Below, piece after piece: positions 15,902 through 28,459 of a DNA stretch of 64,000 nucleotides. Within the stretch, counting starts at the first letter, position 1. The number at the start of each line of letters is the position of its first letter. A program made the translations under genes and the position numbers. The notes beneath the pieces are model-generated. The model ran no database searches, was not told where the DNA came from, and worked only from the letters and a program-made list of their open reading frames with translations. Source of the stretch: an uncultured Caulobacterales bacterium (GTDB lineage: Bacteria > Pseudomonadota > Alphaproteobacteria > Caulobacterales > Caulobacteraceae); contig CAIOYC010000009.1 of the NCBI GenBank assembly GCA_903862425.1, positions 62,001 to 126,000 on the forward strand, given 5' to 3'.

Positions 15902-16054
15902 CTAGGCGGTCCGTGGCTGCGTAGGTGTGGGCAATGTTGAGGTGGGCGAACGCCCGCAGATCGGCCCATGTGCGGCGCAGAATGCCATGCGAGCATAGAA
16001 AAGCATCGGTCGTGGCCTAGATTAGCGCCGCGTTGGAGATCCAAGGAGACGGGC

Positions 16055-17068
16055 GTGACAAGCGCCGACAAGACGAGCGATCAGACCGAAGAGCTGGCCG
16101 GGCACTTCAGCGCCTGGCTTGACGAGATCGATCCCGAGCTGGCCGAACTGGAGGTGAGCCTTCCGCAGCGGCCCCTCCAGGCCCTGATCGAGCTGCTGCA
16201 GGTGGGCGCCGTGGTGCCGCATGTAGGCCAAGAGCCGATCGCGCTCGATCGTCTGACGAGCTACGCCGAAGAAGTCTGGTTCAAGGCGCTCTATGCCGCC
16301 GTCGAGCGCTGGTACGTCAACACGTTCGGCGCTGAGGCTATCCGCGGCAAAGGCAATGCCCCGCTTGATGGCGTGATCCTGATCCGCGGCGTGGCCTATG
16401 CCATCTCCGTCCCAACAAACCGCGGCGAGGTGGTCATCCCGGGCAAGCAGGCTTGGATGTATTTCGAAGAGGGTTTGGGCGAGGGGGAGGATGCGCTCGA
16501 CTGGGTGGTCGATGCGCCAGACCTTTCGCGCCTGGATTCGGCGCGCCGTAACGAGGTCGAGGCGCAGGCGCTGAAGGTCGCCTCGGCGCTGCGGCTGATC
16601 AACTTTCGACGGCTCGGATTTGGCAGGGCGGAGCCCGACATCCGAAGCCTGGTGTTGGGGGCTCGTGGCTACATCCAGCAGGCGGCGCGTAAGATCGTCG
16701 GCGCCAAGCCCGAAGATCGGGGACCGGCCTGGTTCGATCTGCAGATGGCGATCGAGTCCGCGTTGAAGCTGGTCATTCGCAACGCCACGGGAGACCAGCC
16801 GAAGAAACACGAGTTCTCGATCCTGCTGCCGCAGGCGGCGGCGCACGGGTTGGTGTTCGATCCCGCGCGGTTTTCCACCTGGCCGTCGTTTCCTGAGATC
16901 AGCGACTATCGCTATCTGCAAGGCACGCCTGGCGGGGTCGAGCGCCTCTTTCAGGCTTATCTGCTGGCGCTGGATCTGGTGGTTGCGGTCTTCTCGCTAT
17001 TCGATCCGCCGCTGCAGTCCGGGGCGGGCCTTCTGCTCCGATATGCGCCGTGGAAGGCGGACGCCTGA
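16055..17068 (+). CDS. Hypothetical protein, possible HEPN-like helical segment
   Basis: 337-residue protein I do not recognise. The GTG at 16055 is chosen because AAGGAGA lies five bases upstream. The N-terminal third is acidic and helical (TEELAGHFSAWLDEIDPELAELEV), the middle has a beta-rich part (GVILIRGVAYAISVP). Residues 227-258 read WFDLQMAIESALKLVIRN and end KKHEFSILL, which recalls the helix and lysine/histidine pattern of HEPN proteins, but this is only a visual resemblance. No signal peptide. It stands alone between the MFS remnant and dnaE2, converging with the latter. Confidence 0.6.
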   Translation: MTSADKTSDQTEELAGHFSAWLDEIDPELAELEVSLPQRPLQALIELLQVGAVVPHVGQEPIALDRLTSYAEEVWFKALYAAVERWYVNTFGAEAIRGKGNAPLDGVILIRGVAYAISVPTNRGEVVIPGKQAWMYFEEGLGEGEDALDWVVDAPDLSRLDSARRNEVEAQALKVASALRLINFRRLGFGRAEPDIRSLVLGARGYIQQAARKIVGAKPEDRGPAWFDLQMAIESALKLVIRNATGDQPKKHEFSILLPQAAAHGLVFDPARFSTWPSFPEISDYRYLQGTPGGVERLFQAYLLALDLVVAVFSLFDPPLQSGAGLLLRYAPWKADA

Positions 17069-21342: not shown

Positions 21343-22866
21343 TCATGCGAACAGACCGTGCATGTACCAGCTGAGGTCGCCGGTGACGGGGTGTTCCCCG
21401 TCGCCGCGTCGAAAGACCCAGAACCGCTCTCCGGCTTGGTCTTCGAGCTGGAAGTAGTCTCTGACGCCCTCGCGTTCGCCGCCTCGCACCCACCACTCGC
21501 CGAAGATACGCTCTGGTCCGTCGGCGCGCTTCACGCGATGGCGGATGCCGCGCCAGGTAAAGGCGACCGGCGGCTGGTCAGGCAGGAGCGCCACCGCCTC
21601 AATCTTCTCAGGCCGTGCGAACAGCCGTGTGGGGCGGGGCCAACGCGCTGGCCAGGTGTCGCCGGTGAGCGGCGCGGTCGCGGCCAGCTTCTGCGCTGAG
21701 CGTTCGGGCACATCGCTCTGGGCGGGGGTGAAGCGGTAAAGCCGTTCGGCGCCCAGCCGGTTGATCAGGGTGTCGACCAGATCCTCGACATTGGGCTCGG
21801 GCGCGGCGGTGAGGTCGCTGGCGAAGGGTTTCCAGTCCAAGGGTTCGGCGATGGGGGCGGCCAGCACCATGGTCTCGACGCCAAAGCCCGGATCGACGGT
21901 CTCGAGCTTGTCGCAGAGCAGCCGCGCGAGCCGCTTGATGTCCCGCACCGGCTTGGCGGTGGCGACCCGGATGACCTCGATCCGGTTGTCGACGCGATGA
22001 AAGCGAAGGTCGAGCGCCTTGGCGCCGAGCCCCTTGGCCTCCAGCGCGATGCATAGCGCTTCGACAAGCTTGAGGGTGTAGCGCGCCAAGGTTTCCGGGG
22101 CGCCGATCGGTTCAGCGAAGGCGCGCCGGACAAGGATCAGGTCCGGACTGTCGACGGGTTCGATCGGCTCGGCATAACGGCCATAGGCTTGATCCAGCCG
22201 GCGGCCGAGCTCGGGCCCGAACCGCAGCGCCAAAGGCGCGCGAGGCTTGGTCTCAACCTCCAAGATCACATCGATGCCCATCTTGCCGAGCCCCTGGACC
22301 ATGTCGTCGGGCAGGCGCAGGGCGCGAAGCGGAAGATGGGCGATGGCGCGCCCGCTCTCATCGCCGGCGACCGTGAGGGTGGGATTGGCGACATAGCGGG
22401 CGAGGGCATGGGCGGCGCCCCAGGTTCCGGCGACGGCGGCGCGGGCGGCGACGCCCACGCTCGCCAGGCGCTCGATCATGTCGGTCATCAGCGCCTCCTC
22501 GCCCCCGAACCGGTGGGCGGCGCCGGTGATGTCGAGGACCAGGCCGTCGGGCGGATCGGGCGCGACGATCGGCGCATAGAGCTTGAGCGCCCAGAGGGCG
22601 AGGCGGACCAGAGCGTCGTGGTCGGCCTCGGGATCGGCATCGACCGCCATGGCTTCGGCGCAGAGCGCCCGGGCTTGGGCGGCGGCCATGCCGGGATAGA
22701 GCCGCAGCTTGAGGGCTGCGGCGTCGGCGGCTAGCACCACGCGCTTGCGGCCCAGGCTGCCGACCATCAGGACCGGTGTTTCAGCCGGCGGCGCGGACGT
22801 CCCATGGCGGCGGCGCCAGCGATCGGTCGGCCAGGTCGGCAGGTAGAGCGAGACGACCCGTCTCAT
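21343..22866 (-). CDS. imuB: ImuB, Y-family polymerase-like mutasome protein
   Basis: 507-residue DNA polymerase Y-family protein lacking catalytic activity in characterised homologues; it links DnaE2 to the beta clamp. It begins RRVVSLYLPTWPTDRW; the palm-like region has GMAAAQARAL and GLVLDITGAAHRFGGE where polymerases would carry catalytic acids, and a little-finger/C-terminal tail ends with FRRGDGEHPVTGDLSWYMHGLFA, typical of ImuB. The start at 22866 overlaps the end of the imuA remnant by about 85 bases, as in intact imuA-imuB pairs. Because imuA upstream is broken, the promoter that drives imuB here is uncertain. Confidence 0.95.
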   Translation of the reverse strand: MRRVVSLYLPTWPTDRWRRRHGTSAPPAETPVLMVGSLGRKRVVLAADAAALKLRLYPGMAAAQARALCAEAMAVDADPEADHDALVRLALWALKLYAPIVAPDPPDGLVLDITGAAHRFGGEEALMTDMIERLASVGVAARAAVAGTWGAAHALARYVANPTLTVAGDESGRAIAHLPLRALRLPDDMVQGLGKMGIDVILEVETKPRAPLALRFGPELGRRLDQAYGRYAEPIEPVDSPDLILVRRAFAEPIGAPETLARYTLKLVEALCIALEAKGLGAKALDLRFHRVDNRIEVIRVATAKPVRDIKRLARLLCDKLETVDPGFGVETMVLAAPIAEPLDWKPFASDLTAAPEPNVEDLVDTLINRLGAERLYRFTPAQSDVPERSAQKLAATAPLTGDTWPARWPRPTRLFARPEKIEAVALLPDQPPVAFTWRGIRHRVKRADGPERIFGEWWVRGGEREGVRDYFQLEDQAGERFWVFRRGDGEHPVTGDLSWYMHGLFA

Positions 22867-23269
22867 CACAGGCTTCCAGTTCAAAATCGGCGCATTCGCC
22901 GGCCTTGCAGCGGATGAGCTCGACGAGCCACCGCGCCCGGCCGACGCCTGCGTCTGGCAAGGGAGAAGACGGGAGGGCGCTCACGCGCCAGCGGGTGGAG
23001 GCGGCGGTGGGCTGTCCGAAGTCGGCGGCTTCAGCCTCGCGTCGCCAGCGCCGAACGGCGACGCCCAGGGCGCCGCTCTCTTCGGCGCAGAGCTGAAGAC
23101 GGCGCGAGGCGGTCATTGGCAGGGCGGCGACCTCGCCGACCACGGCCGAGAAGCCGCCATGGCGAAGGCCGTCTTCGAAGGCGGCGAGGACCGATTTCTC
23201 GTCGCCGGCTTCGACATAGATAACGCGGTCGGGGTGCAGGCCGACCTGGGCCAAAGCCGGTGCAAAGAA
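22781..23269 (-). pseudogene. imuA: imuA, 5'-truncated remnant
   Basis: The frame encodes the C-terminal 160 or so residues of ImuA, the RecA-like mutasome partner (FFAPALAQVGLHPDRVIYVEAG..., GLRHGGFSAVVGEVAALPMTASRRLQL, LGVAVRRWRR). Intact ImuA is about 240-260 residues. Upstream of FFAPAL the frame hits a stop at 23276-23278 and similarity ends, so the first 90-100 codons, the ribosome-binding site and the promoter have been replaced by other DNA. A TTG at 23254 could start a truncated protein, but it would miss the N-terminal part of the RecA-like fold. Overlaps imuB as in intact operons. Confidence 0.8.
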
Positions 23270-23270
23270 C

Positions 23271-23723
23271 GGCGGCTACCCCACAGCCAACAATATCGCT
23301 CGGCGCTACCTCGTACCGCCTGATATCGAGCTCTTGGTTCGCTTGTCCTCGTGGCATGAGCGCAATGAGACCTACACCCAGGTCAAATCTGACATTGCTA
23401 TCGGGCGTCTTGAGCTTCGGCGGCGCTACAAGGTCTTTGTAGCGGCCCAAGTCACTGCCACGGCAAAGTTGGTTTGCGGCGAGGATCTGTTCATCAAGCT
23501 GATGACTGACTTTGAAGTGCGGCGCGGTTTTGCCGTCTGGCTCAACCCCGACGTCTCCAGCCGGACGCCGTTCGCTGTTTCTCCAAACTTCGCGAGCTTC
23601 ATGTCGACACGCCGCGAGGTGAGTGCGCTGGCGATCGACAGTCTGGCGCTCAAACCGAGCGCCGCGCCCAAGACCAACTCCATCAACGCGCGATTGCTAA
23701 CCGACCTGCTGTTTCGAGCGTGA
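23271..23723 (+). pseudogene. Orphan 3' gene fragment at the island's left edge
   Basis: An open frame of about 150 codons ending at TGA 23721-23723, starting without a clear initiation codon right at the imuA break. It reads as a well-formed protein end: GGYPTANNIARRYLVPPDIEL, a basic helix AIGRLELRRRYKVFVAAQ, and two hydrophobic strands. An internal GTG at 23334 could start a 129-residue product. I recognise no family. Its abrupt beginning against truncated imuA suggests that a join cut both genes. Confidence 0.5.
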
Positions 23724-23754: not shown

Positions 23755-25350
23755 TCAAGACGCTGTGGCGAAGACACCAGCCGGAAAGTCGTCGAACAGG
23801 GTCTCGTCCCCATAGGTCGCGTTGTAGAATTTGACGACGCTCTCGATCAAATCGGGATTTCCGTGATCGAGCGCTCTTGGAAAGAGCCGGACTAAGAAGT
23901 TGATGGGCAGGCGAATGTCGCCGCGGTGTTCCATATCTTGGAGCCACGCTTCATAGCGCTTGTACCGGTCATCGGCGATATCAGCGCGAGCCCCTTCGTT
24001 GTAAGCCACATAGATGATGCCGACCTCGCCTGGTGTGATCTGCTTGGTGGCGTCCTGAAAAAGATCCACCGGCGCCCACGCACGCTTTCTGAGAGCGGCT
24101 TCTGAGAGATTCTTCCAGACGAGGCCTATGGGTGAGCGGGCTTCATCGGTGAAGCCCGCTTGAGGGCCGTCGAACCGGCAGACGATGCCATCCCACTCCG
24201 GAACATCACTCTCCCAATCAAACATGCGCTTGAGCAGGATTGGACTGTAGGCCTTGGTTTGGGAGGGGAGGGTGGTTCTGCGCGGCAGCTCCTGGAACGC
24301 CACCTCGCCCCACGGATACTGAAGCGGCCGATCTGCATGCGCCGCCAGACGTTGCGCGAATAGCTTATCGGCGATCTCTTGTGGGTCCAGCTTGTCGGCC
24401 GACACCGTCGCGGTGAGGCTGAAGCGGCCGTACAGGCCGTGAGGCGCGGCGCGTGCGAAGACGCGTTCGAAAATGTCGCGCATTATGGCTTCTTCGGCGA
24501 GCTCATAGGGGTTCAGAGCCTGGCGGCGCTTGCATTCGATGAGCAGAGGGTAGGGCCGATAGGATCGAAGGTCGGCCGTCTTCTCGTGGGTGCGCGGGAT
24601 GAAGGACACTGGCGTTCCCCGGTCAATGCAGCCCGCCGCGACGAACAGTTCAAAGAGGGTGCTATCGGGCTTGTCGTCTTTCCACAGTGACGCGATGCGC
24701 TCAGCCGAGCCGCCGACCTCGCCGAGCGCCTCAAGCTTGCGGCCCAACTGCGTGATTTGCGGCACAAGGGTCGCCCCAGCGAAGTGGTCGTAGCCCGGAT
24801 CGACCTTCAGATAGTCATTGCAGGCATGCAGCGCCTGACGAAAGCGATGGCCCGTTGGAAACTCGCCTTCCGGCCGCATGCCTTTGACGATGGAGATCGC
24901 CCCCGAATCCTGGCGCGCTGACAGATGAAACTGCTCAGCCGGCTCCGCGTCCAGCCAACCCTTGGGCAGTAGGCTGAGAACGGCGTCGAGCGCGTCTGGA
25001 AGGCAGTCGTCGAGATCCGCGGTTTGGTCGACCAACTGGCGCTTGAGACTGCTGCGAGGCCGACGATCGAACGGGTCGTTGTCTGTGCGAGCAGGCCTTA
25101 GATCTTGCATCGAAGGCCCGCCGTTCAACTCAACAGAGGCCTCAATCAAATCGACCAAGGCCGACTGGCGCTGCAGCAGTTGATCTACCGCTTCGCGAAG
25201 CCGCTCCGCCTCGGCGCGAACCTCAGGCGTCCTTTCTCGTGCGGCACGGACACGGGCTTCCACGAGCGCACGCAGCGCTGTTGCAATATCGGCTTCAAGG
25301 GCTTCGACCGACGCGAGCAATGTATCTGGATCAGTTGGCGTCTCGACCAT
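23755..25350 (-). CDS. Unknown island protein with coiled coil and possible PD-(D/E)xK nuclease motif
   Basis: 531-residue protein, not recognised. Residues 10-75 form a predicted coiled coil rich in A, E, R and L. The middle contains E234 (TLFELFVAAG), D260 and then E272-C-K274 (YPLLIECKRR), an arrangement like the D-x(n)-E-x-K core of restriction-endonuclease-like folds, followed by a helix (PYELAEEAIMRDIFERVFARA). The C-terminal half is mixed, with VGIIYVAYNEGA as a buried strand. The ATG at 25350 is chosen because the upstream extension to 25431 is of low complexity. It is cargo of the dusA-linked island beside a toxin-antitoxin pair, so a defence or element-maintenance role is possible; this is inference. 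Confidence 0.6.
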   Translation of the reverse strand: MVETPTDPDTLLASVEALEADIATALRALVEARVRAARERTPEVRAEAERLREAVDQLLQRQSALVDLIEASVELNGGPSMQDLRPARTDNDPFDRRPRSSLKRQLVDQTADLDDCLPDALDAVLSLLPKGWLDAEPAEQFHLSARQDSGAISIVKGMRPEGEFPTGHRFRQALHACNDYLKVDPGYDHFAGATLVPQITQLGRKLEALGEVGGSAERIASLWKDDKPDSTLFELFVAAGCIDRGTPVSFIPRTHEKTADLRSYRPYPLLIECKRRQALNPYELAEEAIMRDIFERVFARAAPHGLYGRFSLTATVSADKLDPQEIADKLFAQRLAAHADRPLQYPWGEVAFQELPRRTTLPSQTKAYSPILLKRMFDWESDVPEWDGIVCRFDGPQAGFTDEARSPIGLVWKNLSEAALRKRAWAPVDLFQDATKQITPGEVGIIYVAYNEGARADIADDRYKRYEAWLQDMEHRGDIRLPINFLVRLFPRALDHGNPDLIESVVKFYNATYGDETLFDDFPAGVFATAS

Positions 25351-25533: not shown

Positions 25534-25860
25534 CTAGGCGATCGCCTGAAGTCCCTTGGCTTTCACAAGGTTCAGCAGCTTGAGCGACGAACCGTTCGGA
25601 CGTTTCTCGCCGCGCTCCCACTTGCTGACCGCGTCACGCCGTACGTTCAAATACTGCGCGAACACCGGTTGGGAGACCTGCTCCCGTTCGCGCAGGGCCC
25701 GGATTTCTTCGGGAGATAAGGGTAGGACCGTGGTCAGGCACATGACGTCGAAGCTGCGCATGGTCGTTTGATCGACCAGGCCGATGCTGTGCAGACCGGA
25801 CACCGACTCGTGGACGGCGGCCAGGATGTCGGACTTAGACGGGCGGGTGTTCTTCGTCAT
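25534..25860 (-). CDS. HTH-type antitoxin (HigA/NadS-like)
   Basis: 108-residue helix-turn-helix XRE-family protein. The C-terminal part (about 50-95) is a Cro/C1-type domain: LSPEEIRALREREQVSQPVFAQYLN followed by RRDAVSKWERGEKRPNG in the recognition-helix position. Its start overlaps the end of the upstream toxin gene by 26 bases, typical of toxin-first type II pairs. Starts at 25866 and 25860 are both possible; GGAG lies ten bases before the latter. Expected to bind the toxin and repress the operon through the palindrome at 26257-26271. Confidence 0.85.
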   Translation of the reverse strand: MTKNTRPSKSDILAAVHESVSGLHSIGLVDQTTMRSFDVMCLTTVLPLSPEEIRALREREQVSQPVFAQYLNVRRDAVSKWERGEKRPNGSSLKLLNLVKAKGLQAIA

Positions 25861-26233
25861 GCTCATCAAGCTCCAAAACCACCAACTCGCCGCGTTCGAT
25901 GGCCCGCGTTAGGGCCTTCTCGTCGTAACTCAGAAGCAGCACCGCCAACGCCTGCAGCGCTTCCAACTCTTTGGCCGTGACGTTCGCCTTTGCATTCTTG
26001 GCGAACCCGAACACGAAGAAGCAATACCCGCCCGTCCGGAAGGCTAGCAAAGTCCGAAAGCCGCCGGACTTGCCCTCGCCCGTGCGTGCCACCCGCTGCT
26101 TGTACACGCCGCCCCCAAGATCGGCGTCGAAGCGACCTTCGACGACATCAGCGGCGGCCTCGGCAAGTTGCGCGTCGGTCAATCCAGCCTTTCTGGCGAA
26201 GCGCGCGAACCACTTGGTCTTGTAAGCGGTCAC
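25835..26233 (-). CDS. RelE/ParE-superfamily toxin
   Basis: 132-residue type II toxin of the RelE group. It begins with TAYKTKWFARFARKAGL and carries DADLGGGVYKQRVARTGEGKSGGFRTLLAFR and FFVFGFAKNAKANV, a pattern typical of chromosomal RelE/HigB-like mRNA interferases, although the catalytic residues are not certain. The GTG at 26233 with GGAGTTAGG upstream is preferred to the TTG at 26251. The gene comes first in the operon, before the HTH antitoxin. Part of the island between imuA and dusA, where it may stabilise the element. Confidence 0.85.
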   Translation of the reverse strand: MTAYKTKWFARFARKAGLTDAQLAEAAADVVEGRFDADLGGGVYKQRVARTGEGKSGGFRTLLAFRTGGYCFFVFGFAKNAKANVTAKELEALQALAVLLLSYDEKALTRAIERGELVVLELDEHDEEHPPV

Positions 26234-26256
26234 GCGCCTAACTCCGGACAATAATA

Positions 26257-26284: not shown

Positions 26285-27346
26285 TCACGCGGCTCTGGCT
26301 GCGGCGATCGCGTGCAGGGTCTCCGGCCTGAGGTGGGTATAGCGACGGAGCATCTTCCAGTCCTTGTGCCCGGTCACCAGTGCGACCTGCGGGATTTCGA
26401 AGCCCGCCTCGAACAGCCGGCTGGTGCCCTCGTGGCGAAGATCGTGGAAGTGCAGGTCCTCGATCTTGAGGTCGGCGACCGCCCTCGTGAAGGCCGACCC
26501 TGCGGACTTGTGATGATAGGGAAAAATGCGGTCGTCCATGTTCCCGCGAACCGACCGCTGCTCTTCGATCAGAGCCAGGGCGTCGAAGCCCGATACGGCT
26601 AGGAGCGGGATGCGCTGGTCGTTTCCCTTCTTCTGACGAGGGTCTTTGCGATCGCGGATGGTCAGCATCTTGGTGCGCTCGTTCAGATCGCTCCAGGTGA
26701 CTCGGAAGATCTCTTCCTGACGCATGGCAGTCGCCACGGCGAACTTGATAATCCGGCTCATGGGGATGATCTGGCGAGGATTGCCGTCGAAGAACGCCGC
26801 TAGCCGTTCGAGCTCTTCGTCAGTGGGGCGGCGATCGCGCTCGTTGCCCTTGCCGACCAGCCCCAGACGCTTGAGCGCGATCCGAGCGAGATCGACGGGC
26901 TCGACCCGCACGGGAAGCCCATGAATGGCTGCGGCGTGTGACATGACCAGCTTGATCACGCCGATATCGATGCCGATGGTGACGGGGCCGGCGCCCTGTT
27001 TGGAGCGATCCCGGCCGAACTTGATCAGACGCTCGCGATCAATCTCGACCATGTTCAGTTTGCCAAGCTCGCGCTTGAGCATGGCGAGGGTTGCGTCCTT
27101 GGATCGGCCTGGCGCCTTGCCGACGTCCTTCATGTCCGCGATATGCAGGTCGATCAGCTCTCCGAACGTCTTCAGCTTGGCGACGCGCGATAGGGTAGGG
27201 GTCTCGCCGCGATCGATCTGTCGCTCCGCGTCGATGCCCCAACGCTTGGCGTCTTCGTAGCGGACGAAGTTCTCGCTGATGGAGCGACCCTTGCGGCGAA
27301 CCTGAACCCGCCAGGCGCCGCTTTCTTGTTTGACGATAGAGGCCAT
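26285..27346 (-). CDS. Tyrosine-type site-specific integrase
   Basis: 353-residue phage/island integrase. The N-terminal part has an Arm-binding-like segment (ASIVKQESGAWRVQVRRKGR) and a SAM-like core-binding domain; the catalytic domain shows the family's arginine in ATAMRQEEIFRVTW, HxxR in HDLRHEGTSR, then TGHKDWKMLRRYTHL with the histidine and the catalytic tyrosine. The ATG at 27346 fits the natural N-terminus; a longer frame to 27475 would run through the intergenic region into dusA. It points away from dusA, whose 5' end is 114 bases away. Integrases of this type are known to insert islands at the 5' end of dusA in many Proteobacteria. Confidence 0.93.
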   Translation of the reverse strand: MASIVKQESGAWRVQVRRKGRSISENFVRYEDAKRWGIDAERQIDRGETPTLSRVAKLKTFGELIDLHIADMKDVGKAPGRSKDATLAMLKRELGKLNMVEIDRERLIKFGRDRSKQGAGPVTIGIDIGVIKLVMSHAAAIHGLPVRVEPVDLARIALKRLGLVGKGNERDRRPTDEELERLAAFFDGNPRQIIPMSRIIKFAVATAMRQEEIFRVTWSDLNERTKMLTIRDRKDPRQKKGNDQRIPLLAVSGFDALALIEEQRSVRGNMDDRIFPYHHKSAGSAFTRAVADLKIEDLHFHDLRHEGTSRLFEAGFEIPQVALVTGHKDWKMLRRYTHLRPETLHAIAAARAA

Positions 27347-27351
27347 TTTTG

Positions 27352-27427
27352 CGGTGCAAATCCGGTGCAGTGAGTTGTCGAAGGGCGGCGAAAAGCGTCG
27401 TATTTTGGCGTAAAACGGCGTGCACCG
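27352..27427. repeat. Three copies of heptamer CGGTGCA beside the integrase
   Basis: CGGTGCA occurs at 27352-27358 and 27363-27369 (direct, 11 bases apart) and inverted (TGCACCG) at 27421-27427. Lying between the integrase start and dusA, they may be integrase-binding sites. The first copy extends to CGGTGCAAA, which also occurs at the left island edge (23258-23266). Confidence 0.35.
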
Positions 27428-27460
27428 ATTTCGTACCAACTTTTTGAAGATACTCGAAAA

Positions 27461-28459
27461 TTGCAGCAATATCAATCACATAGATTCGCTGTTGCACCCC
27501 TGATGGACTGGACGGATCGGCATTGCCGCATGTTCCATCGGGCGCTTTCGGGGCGAGCGTTGCTCTACACCGAGATGGTGACGGCGGAGGCTGTGCTGCA
27601 CGGCGACCGCGGCAGGCTGCTCGGCTTCGACCCGGCAGAGCACCCGGTGGCTCTGCAGCTCGGCGGCTCCGACCCGGTGAAGTTGGCGTCCGCGGCGCGG
27701 ATCGGCGCGGACCTTGGTTACGACGAAATCAATCTGAATGTGGGCTGCCCCTCGGACCGGGTACAATCGGGTCGGTTCGGCGCTTGCCTGATGAAGGAGC
27801 CGGACCTTGTGGCCGAATGCATGGCGGCGATGGGCGCCGCGGTTTCCGTACCTGTAACGGTCAAGTGCCGCATCGGCGTGGACGAGCAGGAGCCTGAGGA
27901 GAGCCTCTATGCCATGGTCGACGCCTGCGCGGCGGCCGGGGTCTCTATCTTCGTCGTTCACGCGCGCAAGGCATGGCTCAAGGGGCTGAGTCCCAAGGAG
28001 AACCGGGACATACCGCCGCTCGATTACGGCCTGGTGCAGCGCCTGAAGGCCGACCGGCCCGATCTGACCATCGTGCTGAACGGCGGCATCGAGACTCTGG
28101 ACGCGGCCGAGCGGCATCTTGCCTGGGCCGACGGGGTCATGCTCGGCCGCGCGGCTTATCACACGCCAGGCCTGCTGGCCGAGGTGGACAGCCGGCTATT
28201 CGGCAAGGGCGAAGCGGTAGATGTGCGCTTGGCGCTGGATGCCTACCGCCCTTACATCGCTCGTGCAGTTGAAAGCGGGACAAACTTCTATGCCATAGCG
28301 CGGCATATGCTCGGGCTGTTTTCGGGGCGACCCGGCGCCCGCGCTTGGCGGCGCATCCTGACCGTGGAAGGTGTCAAGGCAGGCGCGGGGCTCGAGGTGC
28401 TGGACCGTGCGCTGGCGGAGGTGGGGCATTCGTCACAGCCTGCCTTAACCCCTTCGTAA
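27461..28459 (+). CDS. dusA: tRNA-dihydrouridine synthase A
   Basis: 332-residue FMN enzyme that reduces uridine 20/20a in the tRNA D-loop. The start of the TIM barrel is HRFAVAPLMDWTDRHCR; the catalytic cysteine lies in NVGCPSDRVQSGRFGACLM; HARKAWLKGLSPKENR is the DusA signature. The only in-frame initiation codon that keeps the conserved VAPLMD strand is TTG 27461, with no strong ribosome-binding site. This fits insertion of the adjacent island at the dusA 5' end, which swaps the native start and upstream region. The enzyme itself looks intact. Its promoter now probably lies in the 114 bases before it. Confidence 0.93.
   Translation: MQQYQSHRFAVAPLMDWTDRHCRMFHRALSGRALLYTEMVTAEAVLHGDRGRLLGFDPAEHPVALQLGGSDPVKLASAARIGADLGYDEINLNVGCPSDRVQSGRFGACLMKEPDLVAECMAAMGAAVSVPVTVKCRIGVDEQEPEESLYAMVDACAAAGVSIFVVHARKAWLKGLSPKENRDIPPLDYGLVQRLKADRPDLTIVLNGGIETLDAAERHLAWADGVMLGRAAYHTPGLLAEVDSRLFGKGEAVDVRLALDAYRPYIARAVESGTNFYAIARHMLGLFSGRPGARAWRRILTVEGVKAGAGLEVLDRALAEVGHSSQPALTPS

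Follow-up and report, generated by a model that had tools for sequence, protein, structure and literature searches.

The gene at 25350-23755 (-) of the stretch of DNA analysed (64,000 nucleotides, hereafter the window) encodes a member of a family that is new and has no name, made up of predicted PD-(D/E)xK nucleases, probably directed against phages and probably acting alone. Its 531-codon frame is unbroken, and the codons of E234, D260 and E272-C273-K274 all lie inside 24651-24529 (-). The features of the gene are as follows.

23755-25350, minus strand: CDS of 531 aa, predicted PD-(D/E)xK nuclease with an N-terminal helical hairpin
23965-23967, minus strand: R462, C-terminal region, invariant in 37/37 homologues
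24040-24042, minus strand: Q437, C-terminal region, invariant in 37/37
24409-24669, minus strand: predicted nuclease core, residues 228-314 (AlphaFold2 model)
24529-24537, minus strand: E272-C273-K274 (ExK motif), invariant in 37/37
24571-24573, minus strand: D260, invariant in 37/37
24649-24651, minus strand: E234, invariant in 37/37
25126-25329, minus strand: predicted N-terminal antiparallel coiled-coil hairpin, residues 8-75 (AlphaFold2 and heptads)

A tblastn search with the window protein recovered six plasmid homologues, of which those from Sinorhizobium fredii and Agrobacterium leguminum share ~45% identity and the same long N-terminus, and a genome-contig scan with the window sequence alone found no relative. 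Searches with an alignment of these homologues gave 15 loci in genome contigs and four in viral contigs. Two family members used as tblastn queries matched 60 and 62 plasmid records, and one member used as a blastn query matched 53 of 5,426 E. coli genomes, with at least 80% of the query covered in 39. The 37 homologues that were aligned are all distinct, with a median pairwise identity of 27%, and share only seven invariant positions out of 531, namely E234, D260, E272, C273, K274, Q437 and R462. The first five are exactly the residues that the initial annotation had named as a candidate PD-(D/E)xK core, and the chance that five random picks all fall among these seven positions is 6e-11. Because 18 of the 37 homologues came through a seed pattern covering F233-E234, the invariance of E234 is favoured in those rows; no such pattern was involved in the tblastn sets or the E. 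coli blastn set. Seven more matches came from profile searches of other genomes, six of them near full length and all six carrying E...D...ECK, one with an internal stop; one of the matches (L092) is the gene of genome G339, earlier met in part, and no E...D...ECK motif was found in the short, weak match L095. Kept outside the alignment were L019, whose frame ends early, L045, whose pieces lie in different frames and which also carries E...D...ECK, two pieces of the G339 gene (L024 and L029), the weak matches L025-L028, and numerous plasmid and E. coli matches that were partial or near-duplicates.

Structure models, folded from alignments of 19 rows, were of moderate quality for the window protein (pLDDT 72.5, pTM 0.67) and of good quality for its Paraburkholderia relative L016 (pLDDT 86.8, pTM 0.88). 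In both models, a helix bearing the first glutamate precedes three strands that carry the aspartate and the ExK motif, after which come a helix and a further strand, so that the alpha-beta-beta-beta-alpha-beta core of the PD-(D/E)xK superfamily is predicted in two members of the family; in the window protein these elements are helix 228-243, strands 248-250, 261-263 and 269-276, helix 281-304 and strand 308-314. The acid, acid and (D/E)xK residues fall on the right elements in 37/37 homologues. Structure prediction, which had been proposed as a check on the candidate core, thus returned a nuclease core in both models rather than a fold without one.

Comparison of the L016 model by VIA-align gave 236 chains with Z of at least 2. 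Among the best 50 of these 236 rows, 34 are PD-(D/E)xK enzymes, and the others are 11 acetyl-CoA carboxylase rows, three dehydrogenases or reductases, and two rows assigned to no class (SPO1766 and CinA-CinB). The best non-carboxylase row was the CdiA-CT of B. pseudomallei (PDB 4g6v, 12% identity; Z 8.2, rmsd 3.8, 125/132 residues), with Hjc (Z 6.0, rmsd 3.2, 92/114 residues), VRR-NUC (Z 5.0, rmsd 3.2, 82/93 residues) and HindIII (Z 4.7, rmsd 5.5, 140/297 residues) further down; Z values below 8 are common for unmatched models. Rows for the window model were mostly coiled coil and carboxylase, with CdiA-CT at Z 7.0. The acetyl-CoA carboxylase rows equal the best nuclease row of the L016 model, a likeness that was judged to be due to chance given Foldseek E values of at least 0.01 and no shared chemistry. 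Foldseek gave no match at E<=0.001 for either model, a BFVD search none at E<=0.001, and a profile search of PDB sequences a single match at E 2.7. The Pfam domain Mrr_cat (PF04471) gave sub-threshold matches across the motif region in 4/25 and 5/10 members (some shared between the two sets), the best score among the 28 of 37 members scanned against Pfam being 16.0 bits (L012) against a gathering cut-off of 21. Taken together, the models, the VIA-align rows, the Mrr_cat matches and the invariant residues make it very likely that the family has a PD-(D/E)xK nuclease fold. The nuclease matches span L016 residues ~142 to 441, yet align only ~90 to 125 residues, and these ranges suggest that C-terminal strands may join the nuclease sheet with an inserted stretch between. 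The frequency of Hjc, RecU and VRR-NUC among the structural neighbours would also suit a recombination or repair nuclease that happens to be carried by mobile elements, but the sparse accessory distribution, the defence neighbours and the large extra N- and C-terminal parts make this reading improbable.

The coiled coil that the initial annotation had placed at the N-terminus is borne out by both the model and the heptads. AlphaFold2 predicts helices at residues 8-39 and 42-75 of the window protein, with heptad positions L11, V15, L18, I22, A25, L29 and A32 in the first helix and V44, A48, L51, V55, L58, Q62, L65 and I69 in the second. Among the 37 aligned proteins, the hairpin is common only to the window protein and two rhizobial plasmid relatives (L002 and L003).

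Searches against known families returned little. None of the 37 members matched any PADLOC-DB 2.0.0 model at E<=0.01, and at E<=0.1 one of 25 members matched Cas10b (E 0.021). No match better than E 0.008 was obtained from Pfam for the 28 members scanned, and NCBIfam gave one stray match (E 0.0025) for the 37. Sequence matches to DASH_Dad1, KfrA, L9 and flavodoxin were not significant. Three plasmid members bear the product name 'transposase', a name that is unsupported because no transposase family was matched by Pfam (L004 and L005 scanned) or NCBIfam (all three scanned). In the literature, no paper was recognisably about the family from titles and the starts of abstracts, and six member accessions were absent from the main texts searched.

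The distribution of the gene is patchy, which makes horizontal transfer likely. Among 60 genomes of relatives, the gene was present in one, the window genome itself. In the class, a first profile at E<=0.001 matched 6/385 genomes, mostly weakly, with strong matches only in the window's own genome and G339. Profile searches with the window genome included found the gene in 3/398 genomes and 3/60 genera of the order, and in 6/398 genomes and 6/213 genera of the phylum. The family as a whole ranges over Alpha-, Beta- and Gammaproteobacteria and one Acidobacteriota MAG. In a tree of the 37 members, built without the same-family matches G674 and G724, the window protein groups with two Rhizobiaceae plasmid proteins (support 100/100), and a long branch separates it from the rest; the case for transfer is made by the patchiness, the tree being no proof of it.

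The window protein had no match in 50,697 phage records, and a relative used as query had one. In phage 899, the copy lies between the genes for tail-fibre assembly and tail sheath, separated from the latter by a hypothetical gene. The matching site in P2 is occupied by fun(Z), a gene annotated for blocking T5, and section 8 of PMC9519451 describes the fun locus as a second defence-enriched locus of P2. Fun(Z) and the phage 899 homologue thus share a locus, and homology between them was rejected on inspection by eye, in which Fun(Z) showed a P-loop-like GEKGTGKT and no E-D-ECK motif. Three E. coli loci were inspected out of the 53 genomes, and in two of them the gene lies beside a phage integrase: in the first it adjoins the integrase of a prophage whose gene content is P2-like, and in the second (L081, 3970-5433) the frame is whole beside a truncated phage integrase and IS1. 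In the third, a shortened copy abuts IS1. The remaining prophage was not seen alongside the gene in L081.

Of the 60 plasmid records matched by the L016 query, 51 are conjugative plasmids, which would also fit competition between elements. The gene might then serve its own carrier, maintaining the plasmid or island or excluding rival plasmids and islands rather than phages, a role compatible with the integrase and toxin-antitoxin genes that adjoin it in the window. This is quite unlikely, given that prophages and a phage carry copies too, one of them at a site known for superinfection defence, that homologues lie near defence genes in genome contigs, and that the frame has stayed whole in one E. 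coli genome where the adjoining phage integrase is truncated.

Defence-island enrichment of the homologues had been suggested as a check in the initial annotation, and homologues do often lie near defence genes. The 87 ORFs of at least 150 aa (of 153 called) within 5 kb of 16 homologues matched 195 PADLOC models at E<=1e-10, whereas 87 control ORFs, sampled from 179 ORFs in 15 stretches of seven related genomes that are chromosomal rather than mobile DNA, matched nine. Since the models overlap and 25 of the 195 are listed, these figures are not gene counts; among the models listed, the proteins matched include three GajB, two GajA, two LmuB and three bSEFIR. Annotated neighbours include dndB, dndC and dndD beside L005, qatA near L003, and, at other homologues, DUF4007, TIR, Abi with HsdR, and an AAA ATPase with a UvrD helicase; neighbour types across the family include Gabija, Lamassu, Dnd, Qat, TIR and abortive infection. 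A keyword list found no defence names among the annotated neighbours of L035, L038, L039 and L040. On six plasmids, picked on size and annotation before controls were examined, defence names occurred in 9/59 neighbours against 4/109 genes elsewhere on the same plasmids, or 5/109 when a group II intron RT is included (Fisher p 0.01-0.02), with a keyword list composed after the test tables were known; all four control matches fall in one stretch (Moellerella), which has many defence genes of its own. The PLSDB gene tables are incomplete, so genes missing from them may lie closer than the neighbours given. A poly-gamma-glutamate hydrolase gene adjoins the homologue at L002 (9406-10020), L004 (5028-5627) and L008 (7029-7628), being annotated in L004 and assigned in L002 and L008 from two neighbour Pfam matches; two of these three loci are near-identical.

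Across 17 annotated loci (L003-L007, L034-L044 and L046), no neighbour gene is constant, which makes a single-gene system likely, as had been surmised from the window alone. At five of them (L003, L007, L034, L037 and L040), the gene is oriented opposite to the listed genes that flank it. A scan of the four ORFs between imuA and dusA in the window found no cognate DNA methyltransferase, and genes for DNA or SAM methyltransferases lie near only L007, L042 and L044 among the 17 loci, making classical (type II) restriction-modification unlikely. The same loci bear on whether the protein could instead be a tRNase or other RNase with the fold of CdiA-CT toxins that halts growth on infection (abortive infection). 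Its best non-carboxylase structural neighbour, CdiA-CT, is a tRNase, and the window gene adjoins a toxin-antitoxin pair; against this, the list of structural neighbours also holds many DNA nucleases, and the homologues have no constant immunity or antitoxin gene, unlike the toxin CdiA-CT, which is paired with its own immunity protein, and 5/17 are flanked by genes on the other strand, so that we regard an abortive RNase as unlikely.

Because members often adjoin antivirus genes, reside on plasmids and lie inside prophages, the family probably defends against phages on its own. The homologues are accessory rather than confined to core genomes, the outcome that would have counted against the initial annotation, and its view of the gene as a defence or element-maintenance system gains support from the nuclease core and the mobile, accessory homologues, with defence itself read from genomic context. 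We thus favour, with reasonable rather than strong confidence, a stand-alone nuclease directed against phages or, more broadly, mobile elements.

In the mechanism that we propose, E234, D260 and E272 would hold Mg2+ and K274 would activate water, allowing the enzyme to cut nucleic acid, most likely invading DNA. There being no cognate methyltransferase, the host would escape damage because a trigger is required for cutting, which could be a feature or modification of foreign DNA or a phage protein, and which would be sensed by the C-terminal part with the invariant Q437 and R462. In the subfamily of the window protein, the N-terminal hairpin probably forms oligomers or holds the enzyme off. 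A more elaborate version is offered tentatively and is less probable than not to hold in full: one polypeptide may both sense the invader and cut its nucleic acid without a methylase or an ATPase, with the C-terminal strands completing the sheet after an inserted sensor, Q437 and R462 positioned close to either the active site or that sensor, and the hairpin of this clade gating activity by oligomerization. Such a protein, with its own discrimination of self from foreign, would represent a new family of orphan-nuclease defences.

The closest parallels are the orphan PD-(D/E)xK single-protein defences described by Vassallo (2022, PMC9519451) and with DefensePredictor (2026, PMC13092281), which are likewise single genes with no methylase and several of which reside in P2-like prophages, whereas no member of the present family (0/37) matches the PADLOC 2023 models at E<=0.01. 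According to PMC13092281, PD-(D/E)XK domains occur in 13 systems among 31 of those it validated in E. coli, and the E. coli member may already have been tested among them. The family also shows a weak, sub-threshold likeness to the Mrr-type domain over the motif region but differs from it in the large extra N- and C-terminal parts and the invariant Q437 and R462. CoCoNuT systems (PMC11090510) likewise join a coiled coil to a nuclease, but they are described there as a branch of McrBC, and the window island yielded no ATPase gene of that kind. How methylase-free orphan nucleases sense and respond to infection is described as unclear in PMC9519451, and their direct protection of cells is an acknowledged puzzle. 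The family offers four likely catalytic residues and the unexplained invariant C273, Q437 and R462 for mutation; with an E. coli form, a phage-borne form and these mutable invariant residues at hand, the question of sensing becomes directly testable.

In the window, the gene lies in an island with the following further features.

23255-23723, plus strand: ORF remnant (~155 aa) next to a truncated imuA at the left border
25534-25869, minus strand: HTH antitoxin-like gene (HTH_3; phrog_2104)
25835-26251, minus strand: RelE-family toxin-like gene (PF06296, E 5e-42)
26285-27475, minus strand: tyrosine integrase adjoining the dusA 5' end, with a TTG start (the true start may be internal)
27461-28459, plus strand: dusA-like dihydrouridine synthase, its 5' end forming the right border of the element

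Pfam agrees with the initial annotation on the neighbours, namely a RelE-type toxin, an HTH gene, an integrase and a Dus-family gene. In dusA-associated islands, as described in PMC4482086, the integrase lies at the 5' end of dusA and the element is bounded by imperfect direct repeats (attL/attR). The link to dusA stands in the window insofar as the integrase abuts the 5' end of the gene, but a second attachment repeat was found neither in the window (20-mers with up to four mismatches, which matched only to the right of 28600 and on the other strand) nor in the genome (26 bases with up to three mismatches), searches that a more diverged copy could escape, and the far end is putative. The probable left border near 23255 is marked by imuA (22781-23254, -), which is without its N-terminus, a same-genus ImuA having ~80 extra N-terminal residues counted from the first Met; the truncation may impair the imuA-imuB-dnaE2 SOS mutagenesis cassette. 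The ORF remnant at this border had no plasmid match. A border inside a truncated imuA with an ORF remnant, together with the missing second repeat, might mean that the window copy is itself a decaying and functionless relic, which is very improbable given its intact frame and the retention of all seven family-wide invariant residues. As a working defence gene, the nuclease would be kept by the island beside the RelE/HTH toxin-antitoxin pair and the integrase. In the one same-genus genome inspected (G001), no integrase is present at dusA. In a same-genus locus (L059, 7137-8102), the dusA flank holds, by eye, a RES toxin and an Xre-type antitoxin instead of the island. Elsewhere in the window, a 366-aa ORF (15968-17068, +) has a weak HEPN match at E 0.07.
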